Of a DNA stretch of 64,000 nucleotides, positions 6,333-51,800 are shown one piece after another. A program made the position numbers and the translations under genes. Source of the stretch: Diphasiastrum complanatum. Lineage: Eukaryota > Streptophyta > Lycopodiopsida > Lycopodiales > Lycopodiaceae. The DNA lies in contig CM055107.1 in the NCBI GenBank assembly GCA_029204225.1, forward strand, positions 14,132,900-14,196,899. Reading direction: 5' to 3'. The notes under the pieces are model-generated. The model was not told the origin of the DNA, searched no databases, and saw nothing but the letters and a program-made list of their open reading frames with translations. Position 1 is the stretch's first letter; every line of letters begins with the position of its first letter.

Positions 6333-6800
6333 TGTCGGAAAGAGGTACGTGAAAGATAGATTGAACTCGAAAAGAAATGAATGAAAAATATTCAAGTGAC
6401 AAGAATTAAAACTTTTCGTGCACAGTGGAATAAACTTATCTTTCTCTTTCTCTATGCATGACTACGCCTATCAATTTCGAACAAAACAATAGTGATAGAA
6501 ATCACGTTCAATCTTATAATAACTAACTTTGAAATCATCAGTACTACAGTTGTCACGAAGAATTACAGAAACGCATACATTCTGAGATGAAGCTGAACGC
6601 AATAGAAGATAGTATTGATTCAGTATGAAAACGAAACAGAAGTAAATGAGTGCAATAAGTTGCGGATCGAAGCCGCGTACTCTAAGCAATTTCTAAGCGG
6701 CTAAAATAAAAGTCTGAATTAAGCGCAATGCTGATAAGTAGTAGCACATTAGTAATCTCTAAACAACTCTAAGAAGTGAGCTAGATCCATGTCACTACGG
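6333..6800 (-). repeat. 5' LTR (part) of the minus-strand Copia
   Basis: Read on the minus strand it ends ...CTCTTTCCGACA directly before the primer-binding site. Long stretches match the LTR at 19,273-20,199: a GGCGTAGTCATGCAT block, a TTATTCCACTG block and a TAGAGTACGCGG block. The U3 end (TGTTGGATTATTC in the other copy) was not found, so the distal end is lost or diverged beyond about 6,800. Confidence 0.65.
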
Positions 6801-7269
6801 AATTTTACCAGAGTAGCTACAATAAGAAGTACTTTGTCATAGCAAAAAACAATTATCAGACCTTTTTACATGTCATTAACGTATGTCTCATGCCAATATG
6901 ACTGTTTAAATAGACATACGACCTGATACAAATATACATAACTGTGTTTTTTTTCTGAGTATCTTAATAATATAATCTTTTTAGGAGTGGAAAAATTACT
7001 TATACAAATACTACAAGCAATCATCCCATAAGTTACATCTACTGCTAAAAATTGTATGACTCGTGATCATATGAAAGTAAAATAGTCATATAATCTGGAA
7101 CATGTACATAAACTGTTTATAAGTTCATTTTTTCCCGTAGTATCTTATCAGTACATGAAAAATTGATACTCGAGCTGATGTATTATGGGAGAATATAAAT
7201 CATATTTACTGACGCAAAAAGACACCAGCCCCTAAATTTTGTACTCAAGTTAAATAGACTTATGACCCG
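6801..7269. other. Intergenic, AT-rich
   Basis: No coding similarity, repeat terminus or RNA gene is visible. It may hold the diverged remainder of the neighbouring LTR. Confidence 0.5.
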
Positions 7270-8310
7270 CACCAAATACGAAAATTGTACATAAGTCCAG
7301 CCTTTCATAGAGAACCAAGAGACACATCAACCAAAAAACAACATCCAAACAAATACAATACCTTTGAGTCAGAAACAAAAATCATACCAAGAACAATCAA
7401 AACACCCAAAGAAGCCCAAAAAGTAACAACCCAAAGCCAAAAACAACCAAACACCAACGAAGAAAACATAAAAGACAAGCAAAACCAAGGAAAAGACTAA
7501 ATGAAACAAGGACCCCGCACAACAAACCCACAAAAAACAAGTAAAAAAAACACAAACAGAACCAAGAGAACACAACCACCAACCACCGAAAAACCCAAAA
7601 GCAAACAAAGAAAGCAAAACACAAAACATCAAGCAAACGAGCAACATCCTAAACACTAAAAAACCAGCAACCAACCGAAAACTAGAGGGCAAAGGCAAAC
7701 AAAAAAGCAACAGAGAACCACCAGCAAAGCAACAGACAAGGCAGACACATACACCAAGGCATGAGAAGCCCAACAAGCAACAAAAACCAACACAAGCAAA
7801 AGGAACATACCTTAGGCAAAGCCATCAGAAACAGCAACACCCCACATTACCACAAAAGAAGAAACGGGAACAAACGACACTGCTAGAATACCAAAAGCAA
7901 AGAGGAGGAGAGCAAAATATAGGTGAAGCAAACCACCGACGCAACACAAAGCGCCAGAAACTAGCAAACCAGAGGCATCAGACCGCCACAAAAAAGCCTC
8001 CGAGACTCCGCCAAGCACACCCATCCCCAAGGGATAGACCACCAAATGCAACAAAAAAACCAAACGAATAGCGAAGGAGCATAAAAGAGTGAAAAAACAG
8101 CAAGGGAAGAGCGCCAAGCCCACTAAAAGAGAGAGGAGAGAAAAATGAGGGAAGCAATCTACCAACTGCAGACCACCTACGCCACAACCAACCCAAAAAA
8201 AAATTAAAAGACCTCAAGCCATCTAAAAAACCACCCAAGCGAAAACATACAACAACAAAAAAACCCAAAAAGAAAACCAACAAGCCCAAAGATCACGACA
8301 AGCATCAAAA
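7270..8310. repeat. T-depleted, A/C-rich low-complexity tract
   Basis: Over about 1 kb the + strand is mostly A and C, with some G and only a few percent T; 7,501-7,800 has roughly a dozen T in 300 bases. No exact repeat unit was found. Because A is rare on the complementary strand, stop codons are rare there and several long minus-strand frames of Phe/Leu/Cys/Val/Gly-rich peptide appear. These have no domain, no plausible composition and are not called as genes. The tract ends in an A run next to the (TA)n microsatellite. Confidence 0.7.
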
Positions 8311-21469: not shown

Positions 21470-22226
21470 GAGGCCTAACATGTTGCAAGATGTAAGTAGG
21501 TAGACCAGGAGACCCTGGTCTCGGATCTGATCCGGGTCGGGATACAGATCCGGTTCCTGAACTGGGTCTGGGCCCGGACCTGAGCCAGCCACATGGAGGG
21601 CCCGGGGGGAGGGAGGGAGGGGTGATGATGGCTATGGCGGAGAGAGGGTTTGCTTGACTCAGACTGAGCTTCGAAGGTTTGTCCACAGCGATCTAGGATC
21701 GCGATCCACCATCTCGCCGCACACGGCCATCCTCCTGTGACAGGCTCATGCCCAGCAAAGGCGGTGCCGCACCTCCTATTTATCTCTGGCAGCACCCCTG
21801 ATAGTTTGTTTAGGTCAAGGGTTTGCTGGCACATCTGCGAGCAAGGGTATTGCAGCTCGAGAGCGCTCGCGCAGTGGCGGCAAGATCCGTTCGGATCTGT
21901 TACAGTCAGCTAAGAAGCTTTGTGGTTTGGAAACGCAGTCGAAAGATCGGCATATCAGGGAACAGCAGAGTTTTATCTGATACATCTAAGATATCATATA
22001 AGTGATGGCTTCAAAGAAAATGTAGATTTACATGCAGAGCTTGCTGTTTTCTTATGGATCTGAAGGCTATGGATGTCCCAGTCAAAAGATAAGCTTCCAA
22101 AAAGTGCATCTGTGTCTCTTGTGGCCAGGCGGATCTGGAAGAAAGCAGTGATAAAGCATTGAATCTTGATAAAGGAAAAGAAGCCCTAGAAAAATTAGGT
22201 TGTTTTTTGTAGAAATAGCCTTAGCC
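21470..22226 (+). promoter_or_regulatory. GC-rich promoter / 5' UTR region of the PP2A gene
   Basis: From about 21,500 to 21,870 the base composition turns sharply GC- and CpG-rich (GGGCCCGGGGGGAGGGAGGG near 21,600), unlike anything else in the window. It lies 0.4-0.7 kb upstream of the start codon of a widely expressed gene, so a TATA-less promoter plus 5' UTR is likely. A six-codon upstream frame (ATG 22,005 to TAG 22,025) would lie in the leader if transcription starts before it. The transcription start and any leader intron cannot be placed from sequence alone. Confidence 0.5.
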
Positions 22227-29275
<7,049 letters not shown>

Positions 29276-31600
29276 GATTTGTTGGCTGTCTAGTGTTCAT
29301 TTCAAGATAATTATGTATAATTCTTAGCAAAAAGTATTTTTTAGAGGAAAGTTGAAGACATTTTTTCGACATGAATCCCCTTTCTTATGTCAAGTCTTCG
29401 TGGAAAATTAAAGTCATTTTTTAAAAATTCTGGACAGAAAGCTTTGTAAAGATTCATTCATTGCAATCTGTTTGTTTTGAGTACCTTGTTGCGAAGTTTT
29501 TTCACACTGCTTTTGGAGAGTGTTTTGATTTAAAGTTTGATTTATTTTATAAACTAGAATATCGATTCATCTGCTGCTCAGACTCCACTGATCTTCAAAC
29601 ATGAGGATGTGGCGCACTTCGAATAATCGTTACAAATTTAACACAACATTGATGTGAAGTAAGTTTTAAATAATTGTACATGCTGCAACTTCCCTGTAAT
29701 CCAACTTCTGCAGGGGTTGTTGGAGGTATTGTAATTGCATATAATTATTTTACATCTTAAACCTCTTATATGTATTAAATTGGACTCGATGTTTCTGATC
29801 CACCAAATATTGCTTCGAGCAAGGATCTTGATAAGTTGCTTGCTCCCAATGCACTGGTTCAAATCAATGATCTCTTTCTGTTATGGATGGAGCTTGGTGT
29901 TTGAGCTCCATTTCAAGCCTGAGATCTTTTGTATTAGTTAGCACACAGCCTTCACCACTGGTCAACAATTTGTTGATATTACAAGGGATTTTTTGTCTGT
30001 GAGAATTTTTGTGAGCTTTGAACAAGCAGAGATGTGAAGAGTCGGATCAGAGCAAAGACTTGGTCTATATGCTTTTAGTTATACTTTTAAATACATATAT
30101 TACTAATTCCCAGGAGATACAACTTGACTCGATTCGCATGGGTTAAATATGATTAGGACATGAAATCAAGCTATTACAAAATGATTCTACAAAATCATGT
30201 AAAGCTCCCAAAAATATTGAAAGAAAAATTAGAAAAATAGAAGAATTCTCAATTTGAATGCAGGATCACTTCAAATCTGTTCAAAGAAATTTCAAAAATC
30301 AAAGAGATGAGACCTTTTAAAACTATTTTTTCTTCATGTCCTATGTTGTGGCAAAGTGGAGTTAAACTCTGTACTTTAAGGAGAACACAGCTGGTTTTCA
30401 CCAGCACACTACTTATTGGTGGGCTTAATGCATATGATCAGGTGATCGAACATGTTTGCTATGTTTTTGAGTTTGTGGGACCTTATAGGGTTGAAGATTG
30501 CATGTCTCCTTTGTTATGTCAGGTGTTATCCTAGACATGCCATTGACGTGTGTGTGTGTGTGTGTGATCACTACTCATTTTACGCTGAATTGTTGAACAT
30601 AAAATTATGGTGCCCTTTGGTGTTATGACACTTAGAACATGTATGGATGGATCACTGAAATCTTGATGCTCATTCTTTCACATAGATCTTCTGGTGCATC
30701 ATGTAGTGAGAACTTTTTCAAATATATATAATGTTACATTATGGAGCCTTAAGTAGGAATTGAGGTTGCATTCCATGTGATAATCTAAATGTTGCTTATT
30801 TGCCAATATGGGTCATATATTCATAGATTTACATTGTTTTATGACTGGATGTCACAATGGAGCTTTCAAAGTTGTACATTTTGAAGTTAAGTTTTCAAAT
30901 TAGGGCATCTATGTTTAAGCAACTTGTATTTTGGTGCTTTTTAAGACCATAATATACATTATGGATAAAACCACATATATTATAAGTCTGGAAAATTTGT
31001 TCCCATTGTTGATGCTAGTCTTGTTGACCAACTGGCTAATAAATACAATATGGATAATGGGAATGGTATTATGAGAGCAAAAAGCAAAATAGTTGATCAT
31101 ATCCCTAGTAAAGAAAACACACAAATATAACAATGAATATACTATGGAAAGTGATTTTAAGTGGTTGATTTTCTTGTCACAGGTTTTTGTATACAACCTT
31201 GATCATGTATATGTTGTACTCTCTGTTGCTCCCTACTATGAAAAAAATAATTGGTGCAAGTATTGATATGCTATTACTGCTCTTCACTTGACAAGATAGA
31301 ACCAAGAAATTTGATTTGGGTGGATCTACCTTACTTCCCACAACGTCAATATGGTTTTTAATGATGTTCTACTACATTAGTTAGAGTCACAATATTCACT
31401 CTTGCAAAAAAATTTGTATTTTTTGAATGTTATAAAGCTTGCCTCGGTAACTCAACAAGACCAGTTGATGAGGCCTGCCCTTCCAACTCATCACTGCCCG
31501 AAGAGACAAAAAATATTGAAAATGAATATGACAGATGGTTGAGAAGAGAAAATCGATGTACCATTAATGTATATGCATTATCAAACCATGATTAACAGGG
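29276..31600. other. PP2A 3' UTR and intergenic
   Basis: The first few hundred bases should hold the PP2A 3' UTR, but no single poly(A) signal stands out. A (TG)n microsatellite lies at 30,548-30,566. No gene is recognised in the remainder. Confidence 0.5.
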
Positions 31601-31742
31601 ATAACTAGAGTTAATTTGTGGCGCCAAATAGATCCGTTTTTCAAATTTTCGCCAACACTCTTTCTCAGATTCATGGCCTTTTGTCTATGCAAATTTTCAG
31701 ATTCATAGTTCATTGTCTCAGATTTTTGCATGCAAATTACGA

Positions 31743-33087
31743 ATGGCGCCATCAAGGAAGCCGTGCTCCTCAATCGACTCTGTGCTTCTATTCAACGAGA
31801 TAGATGATAATGGATTATGGGTGCCAAGAAAATATTCAAAAAACTCCTGGGTCTTGATGCATCCATCATCAAGAGGAGCATTTCGAAAAAGAAAAAGGTT
31901 AAAACTATCATTTCGATCTTATTGGAAGGCCAAAATTTTGGATTTCAGAACATCATCAGGAGGAAAATCTATTTCTGAAATTCTAGTCCAACATGTATAT
32001 ATGCATTCAGAGATAAATGTGCAAGGATTCAACCGTCAGGATCACAAAAAAAGCAACTGTGAGTATTGATATTTTTGATACTTTCATTTTTGTCATTTCT
32101 AAAGATCTAATAGTAAACTTGCCAATCTGGTCATTTTTCTCTGACAGATTTATATCCATCCAACATAAATGAATGGGAGCCGAGTGGATCTTTAGCAGGT
32201 GTGTTAGATGTTATTCACACTGATATTGGACAGCTGCAATATCGAGGTAGAACGGCAAAAGATCTAGCTGATAGTGGAATCTTTTTTTATGAATCAATGT
32301 ACATTCCTGATACAAAAGGAAATTTTGGACAAATAGTACCAATTCCATTACCTAGTTTTGAAAGTGATGAATGGATTGCACCAGTTGCTATAGTTTCAGA
32401 ATCATTTCGTTGCAAGATATTTAATGATGTAAAAAATTCATAAAAAATGAGCACGAGATAAAAAAATAGTCAGATTGAGTTGGTTTATTTCCTTGAATAT
32501 ATTTGTGGATTTCTTTTCAAGTGTCAATGTTCACAAAACCCCAACGATGTTTGTATGCAAAAATTTATCAGATAATTTATTATCTGAACTTATGGATGAA
32601 GGCTGGGACAAAAGATCAGATGGAGAAATAGAATGCAGAATTAAAATGTCTTCCATGTGCTTCCGTTATCAAATTGAAAAACAAATGTCAAGCTTATGCT
32701 TCCATTATCAAAGATGGAAAAAAAAAATAAAGGTAAATGGGTGCCACTCGATCAAGACTTGGAAGCCAGTGGACATTCAAAATGAAAAAATATTGAAATT
32801 ATATACAGTGATGTTGTTTTGACATGTGTTGAGGTGGAAGAAGATTGGAGTCTAAACTACATCCGGCGGGAACTATTGCTCCTACAAGATGATGTACTTT
32901 TGGACTTCATATTCATTTTCAATGGTAAACTCGTAAGTAACTGTAAACACTCGATCTTTTATGAATAGTTTCAATCAAAACTTTCTAATACAATTTCTCT
33001 ACTAATTCTAACTAACTTTGTATTAGTTTTATGCAGGTACAATGCAGAGATATTGGCGAAACAATCCAACTTATGGAAGAACATTGA
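31743..33087 (+). pseudogene. Decayed multi-exon gene of unknown family
   Basis: ATG 31,743 opens exon 1 (to 32,058). A GT-AG intron joins it in phase to exon 2 (32,148-32,443), together 203 codons ending at a TAA. Beyond it, frames look equally protein-like: 32,547-32,715 (NLLSELMDEGWDKRSDGEIE), then, after a frame change in an A-run near 32,717, KGKWVPLDQDLEAS and EVEEDWSLNYIRRELLLLQD to a donor at 32,932. An acceptor at 33,036 leads to 17 codons ending at 33,087. An in-frame TGA lies near 32,780. Charged, mixed composition and phase-consistent splice sites argue for a real ancestral gene. I do not recognise the family. It is convergent with the minus-strand gene ending at 33,291 and may be its partner in one mobile element. 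Confidence 0.5.
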
Positions 33088-33290
33088 GATTCACTATCAG
33101 CAAATACATGCCAGTCATCATGTCTTTTTATCATTATAGAAAAATTGCATTCCATTATTAGACTATGGACACAAGCTGATTGTAAGAATCTATTTGATAT
33201 CAATAAAAAAAAACCCATAAACGGGTTGTTTACGAGTAAAATAATTGTATCTTTTTTTTTTTTTATATCTCTCTATTTACAAATAGATCT

Positions 33291-34005
33291 CTATTCAATC
33301 AATTTTTCTATATTTTCTATATCATTATTAGGAACTGATAAAGCAACAACTCCTTTATAATCTCCCCCTCCTCTGTTTCGGGAAGGGCCTCAATGCCTTT
33401 TAAGGCAAGAGGAATATCTGCTACAAAATTTCCTTTCAGGAAGAACTTTTATTCTTTTTTGATCATATAAAATAAGATCTGCATCCTGAACAATCTGAAA
33501 GGTTGTTAAGGCAGGAGCAGATTCCTTTTGAGGGCCCTCGATTGCAGGTGCAACGCTTACACCGTACTGGGCAAAGGTTCTGATCAACTCTTGCCGAAAT
33601 CTATATACATCATCAGGAGTATACGGCTCAAGAGTGAACTATCATCACAAAACACGAGAATCAGCAAATTACAAACAATGATAATAATAAAATACGAATC
33701 AAAATGAAATGAACTACAAATGAATAGAATATTACCTTTTCAATATCTACATCTGTTTGTAAATCATACCATTCAAAAAATAGCTTTGTATTGTATGAGA
33801 CGAACCATGCACAACTAAAAGCGTCATTCTGTTGTACACACTGCATATAGAGAACAAAAATTAGTAATATTATGATAGAAATTTTATTTATGCTATGACG
33901 ATACATTTGATTTAAGAAAAGGAATACATGCATATCAGAGATAAATTGAATATACCTTCAGAGATTTGATGGTTATATCTCCAATTGAAGTTGCCGTTGT
34001 CGGTA
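33291..34005 (-). pseudogene. Ulp1/C48 cysteine-protease-like gene, C-terminal exons
   Basis: Three minus-strand exons, all phase 0 with GT-AG borders: about 34,005-33,956, 33,840-33,736 and 33,638-33,291. The middle exon contains VQQNDAFSCAWFVSYNTKLF, which fits the C-terminal catalytic block of Ulp1/SENP proteases (Gln six residues before the catalytic Cys, then a hydrophobic segment). The last exon begins YTPDDVYRFRQELIRTF, like the closing helix. The His and Asp of the triad should lie upstream, where Copia leader DNA now starts. A TGA at 33,390-33,392 interrupts the last exon, and a competing frame (GNFVADIPLALKGIEALPE) suggests a one-base change in the A-rich stretch before it. Ulp1 domains are common in plant DNA transposons. 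The family call rests on the motif alone. Confidence 0.45.
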
Positions 34006-34182
34006 TTTTCCATACATGTGGACAGTACGGATTTGGACCCCTACCAAGTTTGGGATCAAATTTCCTCACCAAAATCAAGATTCTAGCTTGCCCTCTCAAT
34101 ACTAGTTTTTAGCACCAAAACTTGCTAAAAATGGATTTGCATTAGATCAATGGATTATGCTCTTGTACTTGCTCTGATATTA
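34006..34182 (-). mobile_element. Copia 5' leader with decayed primer-binding site
   Basis: Matches the leader of the 40-45 kb element (44,640-44,796) block by block: ACAGTACGGATTT, AAGTTTGGGATCAAAT, CAATACTAG and GCACCAAAAC(T/C)TGCTAAAA. It ends in GCTCTGATATTA, a decayed reverse complement of the Copia primer-binding site. Its left side breaks abruptly into the Ulp1-like exon. Confidence 0.75.
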
Positions 34183-34854
34183 TGTGAAAGTACTGTACTT
34201 TAGGACCATAGATGGATCTACAAAAGATCCACAAGAGTGATTGGATGCTTGCTTAACAATCTATCAAAAAACTAGACACAAAAAAGTTGATCTAGATTGG
34301 CAATTTGACAACAAGCATTAACAATTAAAAGCGTTGATCAACATTGAAATCCAAGACCACACGTGTGTACTATAGGCTGTAGTACGGCCTTCAAGTAGGA
34401 ATTGATTTGGTTGCATTTGGATAAAAAAAACTCAATGTACATAATGAACTACCTTGAGATTGCCAATGAGCTCCAAAAATATTCTATTTTCTCACTATGG
34501 GAGCCTGGAATACATAGCAAATTTGACTTCCTTTGTGAAGTTAGGTGGATTTCCAGCATGTAATAAGGAAGTTAACTCAGCCTTTTTGCCCAAAAATGAA
34601 ACCCTAGTCTATTTCCTAGAGTCGTGCTTGGTAGATAGCTAGTTGGTCAATTTTTCACCTTAAATCTAGGATTTAGGTCCTATAAACTAGGAATCACTAC
34701 CAAAATGACATGATCAACCCTATGAACTTGACCTAACCTACATTAGGAGTGAGTTTCCATGTGGCATCTTGTCCTTCCATGTGTGGAACCCAATTATACC
34801 AATATTTACAAAGTTCTACATGGCTAAATTTGTCAAAATAGGCTATTTTTCACA
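34183..34854 (-). repeat. Old LTR of the 40-45 kb Copia family
   Basis: TGTGAAAG...TTTTTCACA, 672 bp, clearly homologous to the LTRs at 39,490 and 44,797 (shared GGATC(T)...GATCCACAAG, CCACACGTGTG, GGCTGTAGTACGGCCT and TCTCACTATGG blocks) but much more diverged. The left neighbour is a leader with primer-binding site and the right neighbour is a polypurine tract/3' internal end, so this one LTR serves two internal regions. Confidence 0.85.
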
Positions 34855-36157
34855 CTCCTCCTCAAATCTAGCCTTGGAAACAAGAATGTATCTATATACA
34901 ATTTTAAGACCTGATCTTAACATCAGAATTGAATCATATTCAGGTTTAGAAGATGACATGATCTATCACCATATCCAAGATAGAGCTTCTTTGATCTTGA
35001 TCTCCTCCAAGATGAATTGAAGAGTCTTGATTCTTCCTTGCACCTTTGCACTTGATTTCTTCCATGTTGAGTGAAGATGCATGAACTTGAAACTTGCTCC
35101 TCCTTGATCCTGATTATCTTTGAAAGAAATATGATGTCTCCATGTCTTGTGAAAATCACATTGATCAACATCACAAAACATGTACTTGCTACTATTACCA
35201 AGATTTATCATGCTAAAATGACTAGTCCACAAACCATTGAAAGTAAGCACGATTTTTCTAATCTTGTAATTATAAGTGATCTTGAACTTCATGAAGCTAC
35301 ATACTTGCTTATGGATATAAGTATCCTTCAAGGATGTTTCACTTATTCTCATAAGAAGCTTACAATTTGCCTCTCCAAAAGAAAAAACACATTTTTCAAA
35401 ACAATGAGTGATTAACTCATAATGCCCCTTCTTTCCACAAAAGAAGCATTTTTGCTTTGACTTGTCCTTTGAGCTTGATGCATCATCCTCTTTTTTGGCC
35501 TGCTTCTTCTTTCCATTTCCATCCTGCAAAGACAAGGAACCCATCCTAGATTTTGCATGGAGCATCCTACACTCTTCAGCCACTAATACACTGTGAAATT
35601 TTTCTATAGTTGGCAAAGTGCCTTGGATGGCAAAACTTTGGACCAAATTTGCAAAGTCATCTCCTAGACCATTAAGAACAATTTGTACAAGCTCTCGATC
35701 ATGAATCTTCTCTCAAATGGAAGCCAACTCCCTATTTAGAGACTTGATTCTGAGTACATAATCTTGTGCACTCTCCTCACTTCTCCTCATGCTTTGCAAA
35801 ATCTGATTTCTAAGTATGAGTACTCTTGAAGTGTAACTAGATTCATAGATTGATTTTAAGACTCCCAAGCCTCTTTAGCACTAGTACATGCTAATACTTT
35901 TCTCAACAAATCATTGCTCACATTTATCTTCAAACAATGAAGTGCAAGCCTAGATCTCTTCTTGTATCTAGAGCTAACTCCTGTGCACCTAGAGGTTCAT
36001 TTTCATCTTCAATCAAGAACTCATAAAGGTCTTGGAGCACCAAGAGTGACTCCATCCTAACCTTCCAAATAGCATAATTTGTAGAATTCAATCTCTCACT
36101 AGCTTCTAGAAGGTATGCTCCAGCAGTTCCCATCTTACTATTGACTTCTACAAACAA
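34855..36157 (-). mobile_element. Internally deleted Copia with gag and a novel tail
   Basis: Gag starts at ATG 36,127 (MGTAGAYLLEASERLNSTNY) and runs, with stops and frame breaks, to a zinc-knuckle remnant CFFCGKKGHYE near 35,440. Protease, integrase, reverse transcriptase and RNase H are absent. Instead the gag frame runs on, without a stop, for about 130 codons of unrecognised sequence (35,400-34,966). It then reaches a short segment identical in kind to the 3' internal end of the full element (CAAATCTAGCCTTGGA, 34,863) and a polypurine tract. This is a non-autonomous derivative that could have been mobilised by the full-length family. Confidence 0.7.
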
Positions 36158-36177
36158 GAAATATATTTGATTGACTT

Positions 36178-36525
36178 GAAGCTCACAAAGGTCTCACACT
36201 TGTAGTGTTTCACTCAAATTTGATTTCTAATCCAACAAATGGACTTATAAAAACACTTCTATCACTCCCTCACAAAGCTGGAATGAAGATAAGATGAAGT
36301 GAAAACTAGTTTTAAACAAATCTTGCCAAGAAATGGAATTGACTGTCTCTAGAAACTCACTAAGGTCTCTCTCTTGTAGTGTTTCACTCGAATTAGATTT
36401 CTAATCCAACAAATGGACTTATAATCTCAGTTCTAGCACTCCCTCACAAAGTTAAAATGAAGATAAGATGATGTGAAATCTACTTACAATTCCAATTATA
36501 TTTTATGACAACCTTCCAGCTCAAA
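36178..36525 (-). repeat. Tandem duplication in the Copia leader (about 174 bp x2)
   Basis: Two units about 174 bp apart share TTGTAGTGTTTCACTC, TTCTAATCCAACAAATGGAC and CACTCCCTCACAAAG. The full-length element has one copy of this leader block near 44,240-44,340. Confidence 0.8.
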
Positions 36526-36544
36526 GTTTGGCTAGCAATTTGGT

Positions 36545-36735
36545 TTTTATGCAAGGATCAAGCATATTGAGGTTGCACATCATTTTGTGAGGGATCAAGT
36601 GTTGGCAAAGGAGGTGGAGCTTCAACATGTTTTTTCAAAGGAATGTGTGGCCAATATTTTCACTAAATCATTGGAAAAGGACCTATTTATAAAGCATTTA
36701 TCACATCTTGGAGTATGTTCTCCGTCTCTTTCTAC
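36545..36735 (+). mobile_element. Copia RNase H C-terminal fragment
   Basis: A + strand frame encodes KHIEVAHHFVRDQVLAKEVE, a VANIFTKSLEKD motif and a short tail, close to the fragment at 1-222. It directly abuts the oppositely oriented leader at about 36,530. No reverse transcriptase or LTR can be placed around it. Confidence 0.7.
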
Positions 36736-36739
36736 ATAA

Positions 36740-38271
36740 TCTCTCTCTAAAGTCAAACATCTTAAAGGGCCCATTTTGGGCTCAAATTTTCCCTAATGAG
36801 ACTAGGAGTTTGGCTATATCAAATTAGGCTTTTAATCTATCAACAATACCATCATATTTATACTTGATTATGCATATCCATTACAGCAATAACCTTTCCT
36901 CCTTTCCAAAGAATCTGACTACATCTAAATTTGGTTTTGAATTATAGATACAGATCTTCAGTCATTGTCTGTTTCAACTACTCCATCTTTTTGCTCAATA
37001 ATGCTTCTAGAATGGAAATTGGTTCTTCAATAGCTATTTAATAAACAAGATTATATAATTCTGAGGTGAAATTCGAACTATACTTGACCTCTTTAGTATG
37101 GATTAAATTTTGGATTTGGTTCCATATAGCTAAGCCACTCAAAATTTCATTTATTGGATCAATTGTTCTTTCACTTTAATTTGAAATCTATTGAAAATTA
37201 AGTTCATTTCCAGGTTCAAAATATGTTCATGATTCAAAGTTTGTTCATAATTCAAATCTACTACTCTCCCTTGGTTTGTTCATGATTCTAATATATTGAA
37301 AATTGGATTCATTTCTAGGTTCAATATATGTTCATGATTCAAAGTTTGTTTATGATTCATATGCACCATGATCTTGTTTTATTACCATTTTTCAGAATTG
37401 TACAACTTGTAGCATTTACGATCCAAGTTGTTACCAATCAAAATTGTACTGATACTTGATTGATGCAGATTCTTTCTTTGTTGGACACAAATTTGGTGCA
37501 ACATCAAATTATTAAATGATTGGTAGTAATTATGGGTTCAACGCAAAAAAGAAAATAAATAAATTGGTAGCTTACGTGCTTTTAGCACACTATTCAAAAG
37601 GGTTCTATTCCTTAACTCTACAATGCCATTTTTTAGGAGTATTGGTTTGCAATGTCTCAAGGTGTCTCTATCTCGACACTGTTTATTCATTTTAATTAAA
37701 ATGTACTCTCCCCTTGAATTGGAATAAATGACTTAAAATTTCTCATTTGTCCTTTGGCCGATTTAAGATATTGTTTTAAGTTTTTTTTGGGGCAAACATC
37801 ATGATCATAAATCTCAAAAAGTCAAAGCCATCTAGAATACCTCTAACCAAGATTTGTTGATTGTCATTATTGACAATGCATTGGTTGAAGTCGAATGCAA
37901 TCTTTAGTTTCATATATACAATTGTGTTGAATGAAAGTGAATTTTTCATCAAGCCAAATATATAAACACATGAGATAGCATAATACCTTCTCAGTTGACC
38001 TTGTGTGAGCCACTATCTCCAAGATGCACTTCCTTGCCATCATCTTTCAATCATGAGACTTTTTGAAGAGGAAACAAACATTCATTAATCCGATGTCCCA
38101 TTCTCTTAAGTCTATAACTATTGAAGTAGATATTTTACTGGTCAGCATAGCTGGATACATGTTTATTAACATACGTAAGTTTTTGTCTCTTATCAAGTAC
38201 TAGTAGATTTTTTATGTCAGATTATATACTGGAGCTTACTTTGTTTTTAATCATTTCAGGAAACAATTTTA
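36740..38271. other. Intergenic or decayed element, no gene seen
   Basis: AT-rich. The phrase GTTCATGATTCAAAGTTTGTT(C/T)AT(A/G)ATTCA recurs around 37,226 and 37,327, a local duplication. Nothing coding is recognised. Confidence 0.4.
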
Positions 38272-38652
38272 CTTGATGATTTTGCAATTCGTCGAGGAGG
38301 GCAAAGATCTTCTACGGGAGAATTTTCAAGAGATCATGCACTCGGGCACTATCTAAAGTCCTTCAAGAATAATGAGATAAGTGTTGCCCATTCAAAGTTT
38401 CATCAACATGGTGAAACTGTGATTATGGCAATCAAGGCACTGTCTCATTTTCTTGGAGGACATAATTTTAATAAGGTGCATAAAATAATTTTTGTAAAGA
38501 AAACTATTGCAGTTAAAATTTTAGGATATGGACCAGTGAATTCCATGCTCAGATCATCTCATTTTGTAGTGTATGCTGCTTACGTTGATCTTAGTAAGCA
38601 TCAAAACTATGATTCCACTATTTCTTGCAAAGAATGTCGAATGATGTCGTAA
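38272..38652 (+). pseudogene. Unrecognised exon-like open frame (126 codons)
   Basis: Begins directly after a good acceptor (pyrimidine-rich TTTTTAATCATTTCAG) with ETILLDDFAIRRGGQRSSTG and stays open to a TAA at 38,650-38,652. The first 75 residues (SRDHALGHYLKSF, HSKFHQHGETVIMAIKALS) have the mixed composition of real coding DNA. It lies on the + strand, like the unknown gene at 31.7-33.1 kb, and inside what would be an intron of the minus-strand Ulp1-like gene. The family is not recognised, and no initiator or partner exon is assigned. Confidence 0.35.
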
Positions 38653-38752
38653 TATGTGCTGCATGTCATAAAAACACAATCTAAATCAGTACCAAAAGTA
38701 TCTAATTTAATTGCACATATTTGTCTATGGTAGTGTAAAATCAAAATCTTAC

Positions 38753-39136
38753 CATATAATGTAATATATGATCAACACCCCATGCACTCTGAACTGCATC
38801 CACAAATTCATTGGTTGTTTTTTGTATCATTTGAACATCAGTATTTGAAAATTTATCTTTTCTCAAGTATTTCACCATGTTGTCTAACTTTTTCCAAACT
38901 TCTACTTTGTGTATACGAGTACAACCTTCTTCTTCGAAATCTTGAGTTGCTGCAATAATCTCTTTCCAAACCGTGTATTGAACCTTAGATTGTTTGCCAA
39001 AATAATTTGATAAAAATCTTCGAGCTTTAGATCCTCCAATGCTCGGCTTGCATGGAATATTTCCTGTTTTACCTGATAGCTTGTCATCTTTTTTAATTTT
39101 AATGTGGCCTTTGATTGAAACACACTCAAATGAAGT
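38753..39136 (-). pseudogene. Exon probably belonging to the Ulp1-like gene
   Basis: A minus-strand frame open for 128 codons from 39,136 to 38,753, ending at a good donor (ATG|GTAAGA) in phase 0. This is compatible with the phase-0 exons at 34,005-33,291. The reading frame is strongly protein-like: SKARRFLSNYFGKQSKVQYT, then WKEIIAATQDFEEEGCTRIH, then EVWKKLDNMVKYLRKDKF. No start codon is found, so at least one upstream exon is missing; a TGA at 39,137-39,139 and Copia-like leader DNA adjoin it. A longer frame in another phase (38,902-39,210) is less protein-like. Linking it to the protease exons is an inference from strand, phase and proximity. Confidence 0.4.
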
Positions 39137-39139
39137 TCA

Positions 39140-39489
39140 GTAACCTCACAAACTAGAGATCCAATCAAAATTAGGGTTTTGACAAAATCACAAAAAATTG
39201 AATATCTCAAATTCTACATGCAATTTCTAGAAACTTGGTATATCTTCTTGTAGACTCCAATGAGACCTTCCTAATGCACCAAAAATCATCTAATTCCAGT
39301 AAACCAAGTGTGAAATTGGAATTGATCAAGTATCTAACCCTATATTGAGTTTTGACCTACAAAAGATCAATTCTACACATGCAAAAATGCTGATTTTTGA
39401 GTAGAGATCAATCTAGCATGCTCTAGCATTGGTAACTCCTCCAAATCCTTGCTAAAGATGGCTGATCCTTTCATAACCTGAAACACAAG
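39140..39489 (-). mobile_element. Probable decayed Copia leader
   Basis: The last 120 bases before the LTR weakly match the leaders at 34.0 and 44.6 kb (CTAGCATG-CTCTAGC, CTTGCTAAAGATGG). They end in CTGAAACACAAG, where an intact leader has the reverse primer-binding site CTGATACCA. If correct, the LTR at 39,490 has a leader on one side and a 3' internal end on the other. Confidence 0.4.
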
Positions 39490-40179
39490 TGTGAAAAGTA
39501 CAGTACTAAGGACCATAAATGGATCTTTGAATGATCCACAAGGTGATTGTATGCTTGTTAAACAATCTATCAGAAACTAGTCATCAGAAAACAAGATCTA
39601 GTTTAGCAGCTTGATAGGAAACAAGTAGAGACAATCAAAGCATTGATCAAATAGTCTAATCCAACTCCACACGTGTGGAAATAAGGCTGTAGTACGGCCT
39701 GTAGACAGTGTTTACAAAGTGCCAAAGCTGGGTTTCATTGGAAAAATAGAGTAATCACCATACAATGAGAGGAAACTCGAGTTTCTCCTTGAGGCTCCAA
39801 AAAGTTTCTATCTTCTCACTATGGAGAATGGAAATACATAGTAAAACACACTTCCTTTGCAAAGTTAGGTGAAAATCCAGCATGTAATAAGGAAGTAGAC
39901 TCCACTTTCTTGCCCTAATGTGAAAACCCTAGCCTAGATCCAAGAGTCATGCTTGGTACGTGCATGGTAGGTACAAATCTCATCATAAATCATGGTCTAG
40001 ATCCTACAAGTAGGAATCACTACCAAATAGACACAACCACTCTTCTTGACTCGTGGTAACCTACTTTAGGTGTGTATGTACAAGTGGCACTTTGGCCATT
40101 CAAGTAACCAACAAACAATATTGACAAAATGTACAATATTCTACATGGCTAGATTTGCCAATGTAGGCAATTTTTCACA
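39490..40179 (-). repeat. 3' LTR of the 6-kb Copia
   Basis: 690 bp, TGTGAAAAG...TTTTTCACA. Contains CCACACGTGTGG and GGCTGTAGTACGGCCT. It differs from the 5' copy at only about six positions. Confidence 0.92.
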
Positions 40180-43100
40180 TCTCAAATCTAGCCTTGGAGA
40201 TCACAATGCTTTTATCAATAACTCCAATTGAAGATCTAAGCTTGACAAATGAATCTTTAGGTAAAGGTTTAGTAAACAAATCAGCCAAGCAACTTGATGA
40301 TGGCACGTGTTGGAGCTTGATCTCTTTAGCTTGCACTTTTTCCCTCACAAAATGATGAGCAATTTCGATGTGTTTGCTCCTTGCATGGAATGTAGGATTA
40401 GTTGCAAGTGATTGGGCTGATTGGTTGTCACAATAGATGATAGGGATCTCCTCCTCCATGACATGAAGCTCCACCAATAGCCTTTTGAGCCACAAGACCT
40501 CCTTGCATGTTGATGTCAAGGCCTTGTATTTCGGATTCTGTGGAAGATAGGGAGATGGTATCTTGCTTTTTGGAAAGCCATGATACTACTCCATCACATA
40601 GAAAGGTGGCAAAGGCACTTGTTGATCTTCTATCCACTTTGTCACCTGCAAAATTCGAGTCACTATAGGCTCTTAAGCCAAGATTAGTTCCTCTATACAA
40701 AATACCAAAATTCTTAGTGAATGAAATGTATCTAAGAACTCTTTTGGCCATCTTCCAATGTGAAACTAGAGGACTTTGCATGAATTGGCTTAACTTTCCA
40801 ACACTATAACTAAGATCAGGTCTAGTTATAGTTAAATAGATCAAGGAGCCAATAAGCCTTCTATATAATGTGATGTCCTCAAAGGATGCTTCATCACAAC
40901 CAATAGATGCTTTTACATATTGCTCCATTGGTGTCTCAATGCCTTTACAATTCTTCATTCCAAATCTATCTAGGATGGATGTAGCATATTTAGATTGACA
41001 AATGAAGCTAAAATCACATCCTCTAATAACCTCTATTCCAAGAATGAAGCTCAATAGGCCGAGATCTACCATCTTAAACTCTTTTGCTAAAGCAATTTTT
41101 ACATCTCTAATTCCATCTAGATCATTACCACTCAAGATAATGTCATCTACATACAAAACAAGAATAATGATCATGCCATCATGAAAACTTATATACAATG
41201 ATGGATCATAGGCACTCATTACAAAATTGATGGAAATGAGAAAAGAGTTTAGCCTAGAGTACCATGCTCTAGGTGCTTGCTTGAGCCCATAAAGGCTCTT
41301 CTTCAAAAAACACACCTTTCCTTCATGCTTTGCCTTGATGAAGCCCTCGGGTTGCCTCATGTAGATCTCTTCCTCCAAATAACCATTGAGGAATGCATTT
41401 GTGAAGTCAAGTTGGAATAGCTCCCAATTGAAGGTTGTAGCAAGACTAATGATCAACCTGATAGTAACAAGCTTAGCCACAGGAGCAAAAGTCTCATCAT
41501 AGTCAATGCCTTTGGTTTGTAAAAAACCTTTGGCAACAAGCCTACCTTTATGCTTGCTTATTGATCCATCTTGATTATACTTCAATCTAAACACCCACTT
41601 GCAATCAAGAGGTTTCTTCCCTTGAGGAAGATCCACAAGATCCCAAGTATGATTCTCAATAAGAGCATCATACTCTACTTGCATAGCATCCATCCAACTT
41701 TTAGACTTACAAGCATCTTCATAGCATGTTGGCTCATCTAAAATTGAAGTAAGAAAGGTGTAAGATGTGAAAGATGACGAGCCTTCCCTTCGATCACCTT
41801 GACCATCATAGGTGAGCCTTAATGGCTCGGATCTTGCCCTTGTAGATCTTCTTGGAGTTCTTGGAGTTCTTGGAGTTCTTGCATCTTGAGGTGGATCCTC
41901 AAGTTCTTCTTCACTTGGAAGCTCCTCCTCCATCCTAGCATGATCTTTGGCATCAAGATGATTAGTAGCATTATCATCCAAATCACAAGCATGTCCTTCA
42001 TCAAAAATAACATCCCTACTCACTATCACCTTGCTAGTGATGGGATTGAAGACTCTATAACCTTTGCTATTCTCACCATATCCCACAAAGATGCCTTTGA
42101 TGGATGTTGCATCATCCTTCCTTCTCTTATCCAAGGACTGGTGTACATAGCAAGTGGATCCAAAAACTTTGAGATCTTTGAGATTGGGCTTCTCTCCAAA
42201 TAGAGCTTCAAATGGTGTGATTCCTCCAATGGCTTGGTTTGGCAATCTATTGCACAAATAGTTAGCACAAGTTATTGCTTCACCCCAAAATGGTTTGGAT
42301 GGAGAAGCATCTAGCCTTAAGGCCTTAGCACACTCACAAAGAGATCTATTTCTTCTCTCACTCACTCCATTTTGTTGAGGGGTGTATGGACATAACAACT
42401 CCCTCTTTATGCCATTAGAAATACAAAAGTCAATCAACTTATTGGAGACATATTCACCTCCATTATCACTCCTTAGTATCTTAATCTTGGTACTAAGTTG
42501 ATTTTCTACCAAAGTCTTGAACTTTACAAAAGAATCAAACACCATTGATTTGCTAGACAAGAAGTACATCCAACAAAATCTAGAATAGTCATCAATGAAG
42601 ATTACATAGTACTTGGCACCACCATTAGACTCATGTGAAAAACTATGAACATCCGAATGGATGAGTTCAAGAGGAGAGTTTGATCTTGATGTAGATCTTG
42701 AGAAGGGTAGCTTGTGAGCCTTTGAGAGGCTGCATGCTTCACATCTCTTCCCACACTTTGACAAATGCTTGGGGAGTCCAACTGCAAGCTCCTTTGTAGC
42801 CATAGATTCCATGGCTTTGTAGTTGGGGTGGCCCAACCTTTCGTGCCACAGTTCCACCTTTGATAGCTCCACCTTTGCCAAGTTAACACTCTCCACTGCA
42901 ATATTAGCATCAAGCTTAAACAATCTACCTTGCTTAAAGCCTTTGGCTATACATTCATCATTTCTAAGGATGGAACAAACTCCATGCTTAAATTGTACAT
43001 CTAGGCCATTATCCATTAACTGGCCAACACTAAGAAAATTCTTGGTTAACTTAGGAACATAAAGAACATTATCTAGATTCATCCTTTTGGATGATCCCAC

Positions 43101-44165
43101 ATACAAGGGGGTTCCTATTCCACTTATCTTACATTCTTGACTACTTGCAGTATAGATTGATCTATGTAAGTCATTGTAAGAAAGTAAGGTGGAGAATATG
43201 TCCTTTTGATATGTCATGTGGGAACTTGCCCCACTATCAATCCACCAAGAATCATTGGTGTTGCTCTTGGATGATGGTGGTTTGTTGGAAACCATCAAGG
43301 ATGACTCTTCATCCTCCTCTTCCTCCTGATGTGCAATGTTGCTTTGTTTGCTCTCTTGTGCCTTCTTCTTCTTGAGACATTCTGATGCAAAATGTCCTTT
43401 CTTTCCACAGAAAAAACATTTGTACTTGGACTTGTCTTTGATCTTGCCCTTTGAGCTGGAAGCCTCATCCTCCTCCGTGGTCACCTTGAAGTGCTTCTTC
43501 TTGCCATTGGTCTTCTTCTTGCTTTTGAATGAGAAATTAGCTTTTTCATCACCATCCTGCAGAGAAATAGCATTCATTCTTGCATTGGTATGCAACATCC
43601 TACACTCTTCAGCTACTAATACACTGTGTAGCTTTTCTATAGTAGGCAAAGTGTCTTGGATTGCAAAGCTTTGGACCAAACTTGTAAAGCCACTCCCTAG
43701 ACCATTTAGGACAATCTGAACAAGCTCACTATCTTGAATCTTCTCTCCAATGGAAGCTAACTCCCTATTAAGAGACTTGATTCTTAGCACATAATCTTGT
43801 GCATTCTCATCACTCCTCTTCATGCTTTGTAGAATCTGATTCCTAAGCATGAGAACCCTCGAAGTGTTACTAGACTCATAGATAGATTTTAAAGATTCCC
43901 AAGCCTCTTTAGCACTCTTACATGATGATACTTCCCTTAAAAGATCATTGCTTACATTCATCTTAATACAGTGAAGTGCAAGCCTAGACCTCTTCTCGTA
44001 TCTCACTAATTCCTATGCACCTAGAGGTTCATCTTTATCATCTATTAGAAACTCATAAAGATCCTGGAGCACCATTAGTGACTCCATACTCACTTTCCAA
44101 ATAGCATAATTGGTAGAATTTAACCTCTCACTAGCTTCTAGAAGGTAGGCTCCCACTGATCCCAT
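40180..44165 (-). CDS. Copia gag-pol polyprotein, disrupted twice
   Basis: Gag starts at ATG 44,165. A TAG about 40 codons in (near 44,014) replaces the Gln codon seen in the copy at 35.9 kb; the frame is then open for 1,192 codons from 44,006 to 40,428. Domains in order: gag, zinc knuckle CFFCGKKGHFASEC, protease WWIDSGASSHM, GAG-pre-integrase LWHERLGHPNY, integrase (FIDDYSRFCW, RSDNGGEYV, NGVSERRNRS), integrase C-terminus (VSRDVIFDE), reverse transcriptase (DFTNAFLNGYLEEE, LYVDDIILSGN) and RNase H (AYSDSNFAGD, SSTESE). One extra A near 40,527 shifts the frame; RNase H resumes at 40,519 (HARSKHIEIAHHFVREK, ADLFTKPLPKD) to about 40,175. A repeated RTP unit (period 9 bases, about 41,850-41,880) links integrase and reverse transcriptase. 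All catalytic motifs look intact. Confidence 0.93.
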
Positions 44166-44784
44166 CTTACTAGCAAGATTCTACACACAAGATATAGATT
44201 TGTTTGGACCTGAAACTCACAAAGGTTTCTAACTTGCAGTGTTTCACTCAAATGTTGACTTCTAATCCAACAGATGGATTTGTAATCACAGTTCTATCAC
44301 TCCCTCACAAGCTAGAATGAAGATAAGATGAGATGAAAACTACACTCAAGCAAATCTTGCCAATCTTGGCTATTCTTGGACAAAAACTAACTCTATCTCT
44401 CTCATTCACTTTGATGTACTTTCAAGACCTGGTTTCCACTTTAAGAAGGTCTGAAATCAGCCTAGATTAATTAGTTTTCATGAAACAAATTCAAAACTAA
44501 TCAATGGCAAGTGATCTTGGTAGCTTATCCTAGGATTTGCACCAAAAATTACATCAAACTGACACCATATGAATTTTCTATGATCCAATGAATATGGGTT
44601 ATTAAATGCTGGTTCAAAGATGCCCACACGTGTGAACAGTACGGATTTTGATCCTGAAAAAGTTTGGGATCAAATCCCCTCACCAAAACCTGGATACCAG
44701 CTCGCCCTTCCAATACTAGCTTTTTGCACCAAAACCTGCTAAAATTGGATTAGATTCAGACACAGATCAATGGCCTTGTACTTG

Positions 44785-44796
44785 GCTCTGATACCA
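44785..44796 (-). other. Primer-binding site of the 6-kb Copia
   Basis: GCTCTGATACCA, the reverse complement of TGGTATCAGAGC, directly adjoins the 5' LTR. The leader between it and gag (44,166-44,784) carries a CCACACGTGTGA palindrome near 44,625. Confidence 0.9.
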
Positions 44797-45487
44797 TGTG
44801 AAAAGTATAGTACTAAGGACCATAAATGGATCTTTGAATGATCCACAAGGTGATTGTATGCTTGTTAAACAATCTATCAGAAACTAGTCATCAGAAAACA
44901 AGATCTAGTTTAACAGCTTGATAGGAAACAAGTAGAGACAATCAAAGCATTGATCAAATAGTCTAATCCAACTCCACACGTGTGGAAATAAGGCTGTAGT
45001 ACGGCCTGTAGACAGTGTTTACAAAGTGCCAAAGCTGGGTTTCATTGGAAAAATAGAGTAATCACCATACAATGAGAGGAAACTCGAGTTTTTCCTTGAG
45101 GCTCCAAAAAGTTTCTATCTTCTCACTATGGAGAATGGAAATACATAGTAAAACACACTTCCTTTGCAAAGTTAGGTGAAAATCCAGCATGTAATAAGGA
45201 AGTAGACTCCACTTTCTTGCCCTAATGTGAAAACCCTAGCCTAGATCCAAGAGTCATGCTTGGTAGGTGCATGGTAGGTACAAATCTCATCATAAATCAT
45301 GGTCTAGATCCTACAAAGTAGGAATCACTACCAAATAGACACAACCACTCCTCTTGACTCGTGGTAACCTACTTTAGGTGTGTATGTACAAGTGGCACTT
45401 TGGCCATTCAAGTAACCAACAAACAATATTGACAAAATGTACAATATTCTACATGGCTAGATTTGCCAATGTAGGCAATTTTTCACA
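44797..45487 (-). repeat. 5' LTR of the 6-kb Copia
   Basis: 691 bp, TGTGAAAAG...TTTTTCACA, nearly identical to the 3' copy. The single-base length difference lies in a CCTACAA(A)GTAGG stretch. Confidence 0.92.
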
Positions 45488-48887: not shown

Positions 48888-51800
48888 TCATACAGCATTC
48901 AAGGTCATATTTGGAATACTCCCCAGAAGCTCTAGCACTTGTTGCTTTTGATCAGCAGTTGTGCAAGAATTTATGAGAGTAGTCCTTGATACTTCATCGG
49001 GCTCAAAGCCATTACTAATCATCTCCTTGAACAAAAGAACTGCATTGTCAAAATTTTCACTTGCCCCATACGCACCAAGCAAGATTGTATAGACAACATG
49101 ATTCGGCTTAATACCTGCATTACGCATATCATTGTACGTCTTCATCATCTTATCTAAATTTTTCACATTCGCATAGCCCTTTATCATAGTACTATATGTC
49201 ATCAGATTGGGTTTTACAGCAAGAGTTTTCATTCTCGCAAATACTCGCTCAGCTTGTTCCATGTCAAGTATGTTGCTATAGGCCGAAATCAAGCACGTAT
49301 ATGACTGGACATTTGGTCGACACCTGATATCAAACATTACTTGTAAAATTAGCAAATGCAGCAGAGGGGTAGATTCAACAGAAGTTGGATATTTTTCATT
49401 AAAGAGGGGAAAACATACCTATCAGCATTCATCTCTTTGAAGACCATTTCTGCACCATCAATCACATGAGATTTGGCATATGCATCCATCAGAGCATTGT
49501 ATGTTGCTTTTGTTGGCCTGAATGTACAAACCCATCATGTTATAGCCAAAAAAGAGTTGATATATAAGCTCTTCCTTGCATGTTGATGCTCGAATGCAAT
49601 AGCAAAATACCAGGTCAAACTAGGTATGTACGTACCGAATCCCATAAGCCATCATTTCCTTGAATGCAGTTCGAGCGTCCTCAGGTTTTCTTGCCTTTGC
49701 ATAAGCGTGAATCAGTGAAGTATAGCTAACAACATCAGGCTTGATCTTGGATATTTGCATCTGGAAATATGACCAAAAATAAGCATCCAAGTCCAAATCC
49801 CAAGTTGTCACAAGGTATTCAAGGTGGATCTATCTCTAGTGTAAGCAATCAACACTTGTAAGGTTATGAGAAATTTCCAACAGCAAAAAGTTGTTGATAA
49901 GGACAGTATTTCAGAGTTAAGAGTCTCATTTGCAAGGTTATAACATCATACAGAGTAGATACAAGAAGATCATATTGCAACCCACTCCTAGCTTTAACAC
50001 GGGATACATAAAGAAGCATTGCTATTTATAAATGTTTATGCTTTTTCATGGAACAAATTTTCTTGCATGTTACTAATATTGCTACAATTCAGTTTATGCA
50101 ACTCTTCAATAAAGTTGCAACATGAAAAATGTTCTTGAAGAGGAGTATGTATCGTGATTTTAATCAGTTACTGGAGAGGATTTCGAGAGCCTTTTTGGTT
50201 TGATGCATACACAAGCCCAAGAATATGTGGCTTCAATGGAATTCAAGAAGAGATAAATGACCCAATTCAGCTCAACTACCAGATATGGGCCTGTACACCC
50301 ATCCCCCCCATGGCTGGCATAACTAACAACAGAATTTATAACCACCCCAACATCTCGTTGGCAAGGCCTTGGTCCCGCCGACCATGGAATTCCCTTGGCC
50401 ATTAGCCCTGATAGTTCTTCTTGAGCTAACAGCCACTACTAGCTGTTACACAATGACTTGAATAAATAACTGGATACTTGTCAAATAAGCTCATTCACTG
50501 ACATTTCTCTGACTCATACCAACTTTTTTGACGTTATCGATTATTAGCTGCTTATACGCTTATGTATTTACTATTAGCTTTCGTTTACATGTAGACAATA
50601 TGATATTGATTTGCCTGGGGAAGTGCAAGAAACATATTGGCTTGCAATAATTCCTTGTAATTCTTATGTAGTATCTAATAGAGGGGATTATGTCCAAGCA
50701 ACCAAATATTCTTGAAGGATAGCACTCAACTATCTTTGCATGTGATCTTATGCTCAATTCCATAATCTTTGGTTCTTGCAGTTGCCATTTGACTTAAATA
50801 GATTCAAACATTTTGTGTACAAGTTCGAATTACTCAATAGCAAAACAATTTGAGAAAACCCTTCAGTTTCCCAAAATTTCGAATAAAAAAACGAGAACAA
50901 TTTAGTTATTTTGGGAAATGAAGGCAATGTAGAATTTCTCTTCAATTTACGAAGTTATTCAAATTGGTTTGAAGGGCTTTGAAGCGTGATTCTTTGTTAC
51001 TATGCACTATCACTAACCCTCGAATTACTTCAAACTGACTTGAAGGGCTTAAAATCGTGATTCTTTGTTACTAAGCACCATCACTACACACTCATAAGTC
51101 CATGTAAACACTCATGAGGCTACAGACATGAAAACTTGTATGTACTTTACATCCCTTGGGAAACTATAGCTTTAGATGTTTCATTATAAGCGTCAATTCT
51201 AGCATACAATCAGAGCATATCATGTCCTTGTGAGTGTCGTTTATTAACATGGCATCGGAGCTTACTTGAATTCTAACATGGTATCACAACATGAACTATG
51301 TATGCCAAAATTTTGGCATTTAGGCCGTTTTAATATTTTATCTTTCATATTCAGGAGTATACTTTTCAGGAGTTGATTTCATTATTATGTTTACCCCTTT
51401 TGTAAATTGATATTTTAAGTTAGGGTGTGAAATTCCAGCCAGGACTAAGTGGCACGTCAGTTCTGTTTGCCTAGTTGATTGGCTATCTACAGGTCGAGAT
51501 ATTGCATATTCCTGCATGGGGCACGGCTACTTGTTATTAAACTTCCAGTTCGGGTTGTACATGTTTTACTTTGTATGTATGATACTTCTATAGAATATGC
51601 AGTCTCTTATACGATATTTAAGCCGCATTAGCATGACATGGCAGGGGGGCGAACTAGATACGATATGGACAACAGCTGCTTACCCTTTTACGATATTAAA
51701 ATATTGCAAGCCCCTTTGTCTCAAAGATTGGCTGGTAAAATTCCCTGAGTGGTAAGAATTGTAAGATGTGAGTCTTATTGTAATCCTCAAATTTAAAAGG

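Follow-up and report, generated by a model that had tools for sequence, protein, structure and literature searches.

A dead fragment of a repeated DNA transposon family with two convergent gene pairs and a putative RAG1-type transposase gene in Diphasiastrum complanatum

Results

Genes and element remains in the window

The stretch of DNA analysed here, referred to as the window, comprises 64,000 nucleotides of the Diphasiastrum complanatum genome (G000:C16:14,132,900-14,196,899). Within it lie pieces of four genes, named ORF1, Ulp1-like protease, ORF3 and TNP, which are separated by Copia-type sequence. These sequences are best read as what is left, about 3.5 kb out of 10.2 kb, of a dead copy in a repeated DNA transposon family whose transposase TNP would encode. 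The window copy retains pieces of all four genes and has lost both element ends. The first 200 bp of the element, including the left terminus, are absent, and the rest of the right side, some 2.35 kb ending in the right terminus, could not be located in the 64-kb window. The features are as follows, where c4 and c1 are copies of the element elsewhere in the genome and family B is a diverged relative.

31464..34011, + strand: left element block, matching copies c4 and c1 at 93.6-93.8% in blastn; covers element positions from about 200 to 2,777
31743..32058, + strand: ORF1 exon 1, open in frame; 55.7% amino acid identity to family B; donor site read
32059..32147, + strand: ORF1 intron 1, GT...AG, phase 1; family B has an intron at the same position and phase
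32148..32932, + strand: ORF1 exon 2, with stop and frame lesions in the window copy; 262 positions aligned by tblastn to family B at 43%
33037..33087, + strand: ORF1 last exon including the stop codon; copy c4 has 24 bp more here
33291..34015, - strand: predicted Ulp1-like (C48) cysteine protease, C-terminal part in three exon pieces, with CVQQNDAFSC as the Q..C motif (33,840-33,811)
34012..38170, no strand assigned: Copia-type insert splitting the element; long terminal repeat (LTR)-like piece at 34,010-34,922, gag-like at 35,510-36,329
38171..39112, + strand: second element block, c4 positions 6,582-7,019 (96.3%) and 7,389-7,888 (96.6%), deletion-joined at 38,612/38,613
38260..38612, + strand: ORF3 last exon, truncated; tblastn 89.8% to copy c4
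38613..38657, - strand: TNP exon piece with the H-x4-H motif (HILRHHSTFFARNSG), from tblastn
38753..39112, - strand: TNP exon, region between CxxC and HxxxxH; tblastn 91.7%; frame open to 39,136
39113..45487, - strand: second Copia-type insertion; left end approximate

A preliminary description of the window, made from the letters alone, had proposed a + strand gene (31,743-33,087) facing a - strand gene (33,291-34,005). Both genes are real and converge with 204 bp between them, both contain GT-AG introns as it had stated, and both end in in-frame stops (TGA at 33,085-33,087 in the + gene; TAG at 33,293-33,291 in the - strand gene). The Copia DNA said to break up the genes was likewise located, between 34,011 and 38,171 and again past 39,112. 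The description was to be abandoned if its exons aligned to Copia or Gypsy interiors; they did not, and Copia-like DNA lay only between and around them. Two exon calls were revised. The - strand exon at 38,753-39,136, assigned there to the protease gene, belongs instead to the second - strand gene, TNP. The + strand exon at 38,272-38,652 exists and is the last exon of the third gene, ORF3, which stops at 38,612; the end at 38,652 is an artefact, because a deletion joins ORF3 at 38,612 to opposite-strand TNP sequence (38,613-39,112).

Copies and termini of the element

The + gene (31,743-33,087) was compared as a DNA query with the whole 1.74-Gb genome, and the best 40 of 3,651 first-look candidates were scored. 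All 40 scored matches were significant and, apart from the query itself, 92-95% identical; the copies aligned across 31,743-33,087, with at least 1,341 of the 1,345 bases covered in 35 of the 40. These multi-copy matches across the genome indicate that the + gene sequence is a dispersed repeat. A second query, the last 500 bp of copy c4, gave 95-100% identity among the best 40 scored of 1,880 candidates. Some of the scored matches repeat one site on a second contig, for example C2331/C5, C366/C1 and C1131/C4.

Five copies read for up to 20 kb had a common first base (CATTAGAGAAACTTAGAGCCCGACGAG) with unlike DNA upstream in each. The left terminus was found at one fixed base at 8 distinct sites; the extra left ends C17, C3 and L029 agreed, C17 with one change. 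Of 12 regions sampled blind for left ends, 2 contained one. The right terminus lay at one fixed base in all 30 loci read, with 18 distinct flanks, and was followed by unrelated DNA. These 30 loci were picked by their match to the last 500 bp of c4, and a stricter filter keeps 29 of them. The last six bases were CTAATG at 23 loci, CTAACG at 4 and ATAATG at 3. The element starts with CATTAG and ends with CTAATG, and copies c4 (G000:C4) and c1 (G000:C1) reach the same right end. Its terminal inverted repeats (TIRs) are imperfect, with 23-24 of 31 bases matching and the first 7-11 bp perfect in the three copies c4, c1 and L029. Many dispersed copies with fixed termini and inverted repeats at the ends are thus present; multi-copy relatives with conserved ends were what the preliminary description had named as support for a transposon.

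Near-complete copy c4 is 10,239 bp long. Copy c1 measures 13,992 bp, including a stretch of about 5 kb absent from c4, and L029 is a 1,384-bp copy that kept both ends around an internal deletion. From left to right, c4 carries ORF1 (+), the Ulp1-like protease gene (-), ORF3 (+) and TNP (-), all multi-exon, so ordered that the four genes form two convergent pairs, ORF1/protease and ORF3/TNP. A shorter unit, a 2.4-kb repeat, was considered and rejected, as copy c5a is merely truncated at that point.

Some right ends shared their surroundings. To the right of L029, L030 and L031 lies one shared flank (99.25% across 400 bp); L029 and L030 carry the 1,384-bp deleted element, and L031 has TNP sequence that is absent there. 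Either a single insertion exists here in two internal lengths, or the region has been duplicated. On C10, near 26.8 and 29.2-29.4 Mb, four CTAACG right ends (L032, L036, L037, L046) have a shared flank and are apparently duplicated copies of one site.

Target site

None of the five insertions with both flanks known had a target-site duplication of 3-10 bp. The two flanks shared 2 bp in one of the five pairs and 1 bp in four of the five, and the bases flanking the insertions varied at both left and right sites. One repeat supplied both the DNA to the left of copy c5a and the DNA to the right of copy L043. L009 and L018 each contain this repeat without the element, and there the two flanks meet directly, 0 bp having been added or removed. 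Insertion without target-site duplication is apparently the simplest reading of these junctions. A 1-bp duplication does not fit pair c4 or the empty sites, but could still have occurred at other sites.

ORF1, ORF3, the protease and diverged families

A diverged relative of the element, family B, was found about 8 kb past the right end of c4 on the same contig, where its ORF1 and protease genes are convergent likewise. At L019 (4592-5838 and onward) the family B sequence, with ORF1 and the protease, is followed by Copia-like DNA. At loci L033 and L038, which contain a third family, C, at most a few bases separate the end of a family A copy from family C ORF1 exon 1 sequence, which begins in mid-exon; apparently one family member was inserted into another.

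Profile searches covered Pfam with ten c4 pieces, 4 pieces, 3 composites and 2 protease pieces, NCBIfam with 2, PHROGs with 2 proteins, and PDB by sequence with 3; the protease alone obtained a meaningful match. The protease motifs HWSL, KLNS/KMNS and Q.ND(A/S)FSC are present in families A and B, with a stop within Q-Q in B, and the protease has the catalytic order His-Asp/Asn-Gln-Cys of Ulp1/C48 peptidases. The family B protease, assembled by hand from its exons with Q substituted for one stop, matched Pfam Peptidase_C48 (E 2.4e-8) and yeast Ulp1 (PDB 1euv, E 0.0033). For family A the Pfam C48 matches were weak (0.095 and 0.048, below cut-off), and a longer family A protease composite gave no Pfam match. 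These motifs and matches support the prediction that the product of the - gene is an Ulp1-type (C48) cysteine protease, which bears out and narrows the protease-like guess made for one of the genes. Since ORF1 and the Ulp1-like gene have stayed together as a convergent pair in both of these diverged families, the protease is probably of importance to the element's life.

ORF1 and ORF3 had no meaningful Pfam match. Among all the pieces searched, weak Pfam matches such as BLYB (0.00034) and coiled-coil models fell below their own cut-offs and were discarded, as were Pizza matches in the PDB sequence search, which had 0 passing stretches. The predicted fold of ORF1 had a pLDDT (predicted local distance difference test) score of 37.6. 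The first intron of ORF1, read by eye, has the identical place and phase in families A and B. In ORF1 exon 2, A and B differed at 74, 53 and 126 first, second and third codon positions, and this codon-position bias indicates real coding sequence, not chance. Over its 260 codons the nonsynonymous (dN) and synonymous (dS) divergences were 0.29 and 1.57 (dN/dS about 0.18), and a 142-codon pair gave dN 0.29 and dS 1.58. Comparisons of ORF1 with family C pointed in the same direction, with dS saturated in 3 of 4. Between two family A copies dN was 0.042 and dS 0.023, as expected of dead copies. Judged by these substitution patterns, ORF1 is under purifying selection between families and has lost constraint between copies. 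Selection between active lineages, and not on inserted copies, is the usual signature of a mobile element.

TNP and the RAG1-type spacing

RAG1 is the enzyme that rearranges human antibody genes. In a composite of copies, the candidate catalytic residues of TNP were spaced D1-95-D2-20-C-3-C-203-H-5-H-20-E, and copy c4 by itself gave identical steps from D2 to E when read through one GT-AG intron and four TGA codons in frame. According to the text available to us of a RAG1 study, the corresponding residues of RAG1 are D600, D708, C727, C730, H937, H942 and E962, with C727/C730 and H937/H942 as zinc-binding pairs in an insertion between D708 and E962 (PMC4914335). The RAG1 steps are 108, 19, 3, 207, 5 and 20, and the D2, CxxC, HxxxxH, E spacing of TNP is within 0-4 residues of them. 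When the c4 residues were shuffled 5,000 times, a loose form of the TNP pattern arose once; the pattern had been picked after looking, so this figure means that it is no common accident and nothing beyond. The final E is retained in L012, L014 and L042. Pfam transposase models, including Transposase_21, RAG1 and Transib, were not among the TNP matches at E up to 10. We infer that TNP is a putative DDE transposase of RAG1-type architecture, and homology to RAG1 or Transib is not claimed. TNP may have a tie to uncharacterised animal proteins. An earlier idea, that HILRHH resembled a tyrosine-recombinase box and the element was a Crypton, was dropped; these residues fit the RAG1-type H-x4-H with Glu 20 residues on, and the inverted repeats also oppose it.

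Other features of the window

The second Copia-type insertion contains a Copia element at 39,490-45,487 whose two LTRs (39,490-40,179 and 44,797-45,487) are 99.1% identical across 691 bp and whose - strand frame at 40,428-44,012 is open for 1,194 amino acids. It is a young insertion adjoining the dead transposon. Within the first Copia-type insert, 39 bp at 36,760-36,798 resemble the transposon right terminus (82%, E 1e-4), a likeness that may be accidental or may mark where a related element ends. Farther out, exons at 22,173-28,362 (+ strand) resemble by eye a PP2A-type protein phosphatase and are widely spaced (22.2 and 28.0 kb), open frames at 48,888-52,939 (- strand) resemble by eye exons of a pentatricopeptide-repeat protein, and a 75-bp tandem duplication, 96% identical, lies at 24,242-24,391.

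Discussion

The element is probably a cut-and-paste-type DNA transposon family, repeated in the genome, with TNP as its inferred transposase. TNP would be an RNase H-type DDE enzyme with a RAG1-type zinc-binding insertion between the second Asp and the last Glu. It would bind the inverted repeats, excise the element and join it to a target with no or nearly no stagger. The Ulp1-like protease, ORF1 and ORF3 would be accessory proteins, acting for example in protein processing, de-SUMOylation or counter-silencing. After the element had spread, its copies would have decayed, and Copia insertions and deletions would have stripped both ends from the window copy.

Several points weigh against this account. 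The RAG1 spacing was noticed post hoc and read across an intron and stops, and the D1-D2 distance departs more, 95 in TNP vs 108 in RAG1. K replaces the final E at the L023/L026/L027 site, and Y replaces the first C in copy c11. TNP had no meaningful or above-cut-off match in Pfam, NCBIfam or PDB, and a structure model of half of TNP (pLDDT 37.1) was useless. TNP was not found near family B within the next 10 kb (L051); family C was read at its own locus only. As to the target site, the empty-site junction combines the flanks of two different copies, which probably represent one insertion amplified with its repeat, and four of the five pairs share 1 bp.

The element may represent a new superfamily of plant DNA transposons, with two convergent gene pairs, an Ulp1 protease, two proteins of unknown family, a transposase split by RAG1-type zinc ligands and no target-site duplication; we hold this tentatively, at somewhat below an even chance. 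No title listed in full-text literature searches described the element, searches to which Repbase and GenBank proteins were external. The element is filed as a TIR DNA transposon without assignment to a superfamily. Since these databases also lay outside our comparison and the genome was searched with two queries, its novelty is provisional. An undescribed plant DNA transposon had been one option of the preliminary description: the copies and fixed ends favour a DNA transposon, and the word undescribed stays unproven.

The rival that survives best concerns classification. The element could belong to the CACTA/EnSpm-Mirage-Chapaev-Transib clade as a strongly diverged member using a CACTA-like mechanism with changed ends, a view compatible with the transposition mechanism proposed above, and one we consider possible but doubtful. 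The likeness to CACTA/EnSpm (CMC clade) lies in a TIR element of more than 10 kb with short inverted repeats starting from CA and more than one gene, intron-bearing and on both strands, and also in the RAG1-type zinc spacing of TNP. Large size and TIRs mostly below 50 bp are typical of CACTA in the portion of a plant review at hand (PMC10741241), and termini CATCA..TGATG are given for PlavakaB, of the same clade, in extracts of another study (PMC12730594). However, the termini here are CATTAG...CTAATG rather than CACTA/G...C/TAGTG. A duplication of 2-3 bp is expected of CACTA, whereas 3 bp was found in none of the five insertions, 2 bp in one and 0 bp at the empty sites. TNP has no Pfam transposase match of the Transposase_21 or any other type at E up to 10, and ORF1 and ORF3 had no meaningful family match.

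Comparison with Transib and RAG1 gave a similar mixture. The D, CxxC, HxxxxH, E spacing is shared with TNP, but the TNP core has no detectable sequence similarity. Transib and RAG1 ends have a CACWRTG-type heptamer, which the ends of this element lack. TransibSU has a 5-bp duplication, CCAGG, as stated in a partial text (PMC4411706), and a 5-bp duplication was seen in none of the five insertion pairs here. RAG1/Transib is absent from the plant superfamilies named in the part of the review drawn on here (PMC10741241).

Other systems share single traits. Some CACTA and MULE elements carry Ulp1 protease genes. The Ulp1/C48 protease gene is also a likeness to the Ulp1-bearing Ginger transposons, whose duplication is 4-6 bp in the review's excerpt (PMC10741241); here neither an integrase-like transposase nor a 4-6 bp duplication was found. 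Spy, of the PHIS superfamily, has inverted repeats. Like this element it makes no target-site duplication, but it prefers AAATTT in the available part of its description (PMC4482050), whereas the flanks vary here and no PHIS-type Pfam match was obtained. In the KDZ (Kyakuja-Dileera-Zisupton) group, the CA..TG ends are shared with Kyakuja, for which the extracts consulted give no TIRs and 7-bp duplications, with 8 bp for Zisupton (PMC12730594); this element has TIRs, no KDZ duplication and no Pfam match.

The element could also be a DNA transposon in which TNP is not the transposase, mobilised otherwise or by another chemistry such as rolling circle or a tyrosine recombinase. Cryptons are not known to make a target-site duplication. 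Such a chemistry would agree with two observations, that no target-site duplication is seen, as with Helitrons, and that TNP has no profile match, yet it is unlikely. Inverted repeats stand at both ends, whereas Helitrons lack them in the review's account as excerpted (PMC10741241); the 5'-TC...CTRR-3' ends and A/T insertion of Helitrons were not found, the flanking bases varying here and not being A|T. No helicase or recombinase model was among the Pfam matches, in which one protease piece had a sub-cut-off match to the Phage_CRI replication protein (E 0.071), and the D-CxxC-HxxxxH-E spacing of TNP also speaks against it.

An origin from a DNA virus, as integrated viral or Polinton-like DNA with an Ulp1-type protease, would account for several genes, a cysteine protease and inverted ends. 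It is very improbable: an IMG/VR scan with the TNP piece gave 9 pattern matches of which 0 were confirmed, no PHROGs match for 2 proteins was better than E 0.2, and the Pfam matches of the c4 pieces searched included no model for a capsid, an integrase, a packaging ATPase or a polymerase. That host genes were wrecked by Copia insertions, the other option of the preliminary description, suggested by two ordinary-looking intron-bearing genes with lesions, has a negligible chance of being right and is refuted for the D. complanatum genome by the copy number and fixed termini of the dispersed copies, between which constraint is lost.

Target-site duplications are 9 bp in Mutator, 8 bp in hAT and 3 bp in PIF/Harbinger. 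The plant review counts nine DNA transposon superfamilies, and in the part of it used here none of CACTA, Tc1/Mariner, Sola, Ginger, Helitron and Replitron pairs inverted repeats with an absent target-site duplication (PMC10741241). If the proposed transposon family is confirmed as a superfamily of its own, one more superfamily would be added and part of the D. complanatum repeats would be explained. Joining with zero stagger could then also be studied in a plant system that is related, or analogous, to the RAG1-type zinc DDE architecture. If true, a RAG1-type enzyme architecture would be combined, in a plant, with an unusual target-joining geometry.

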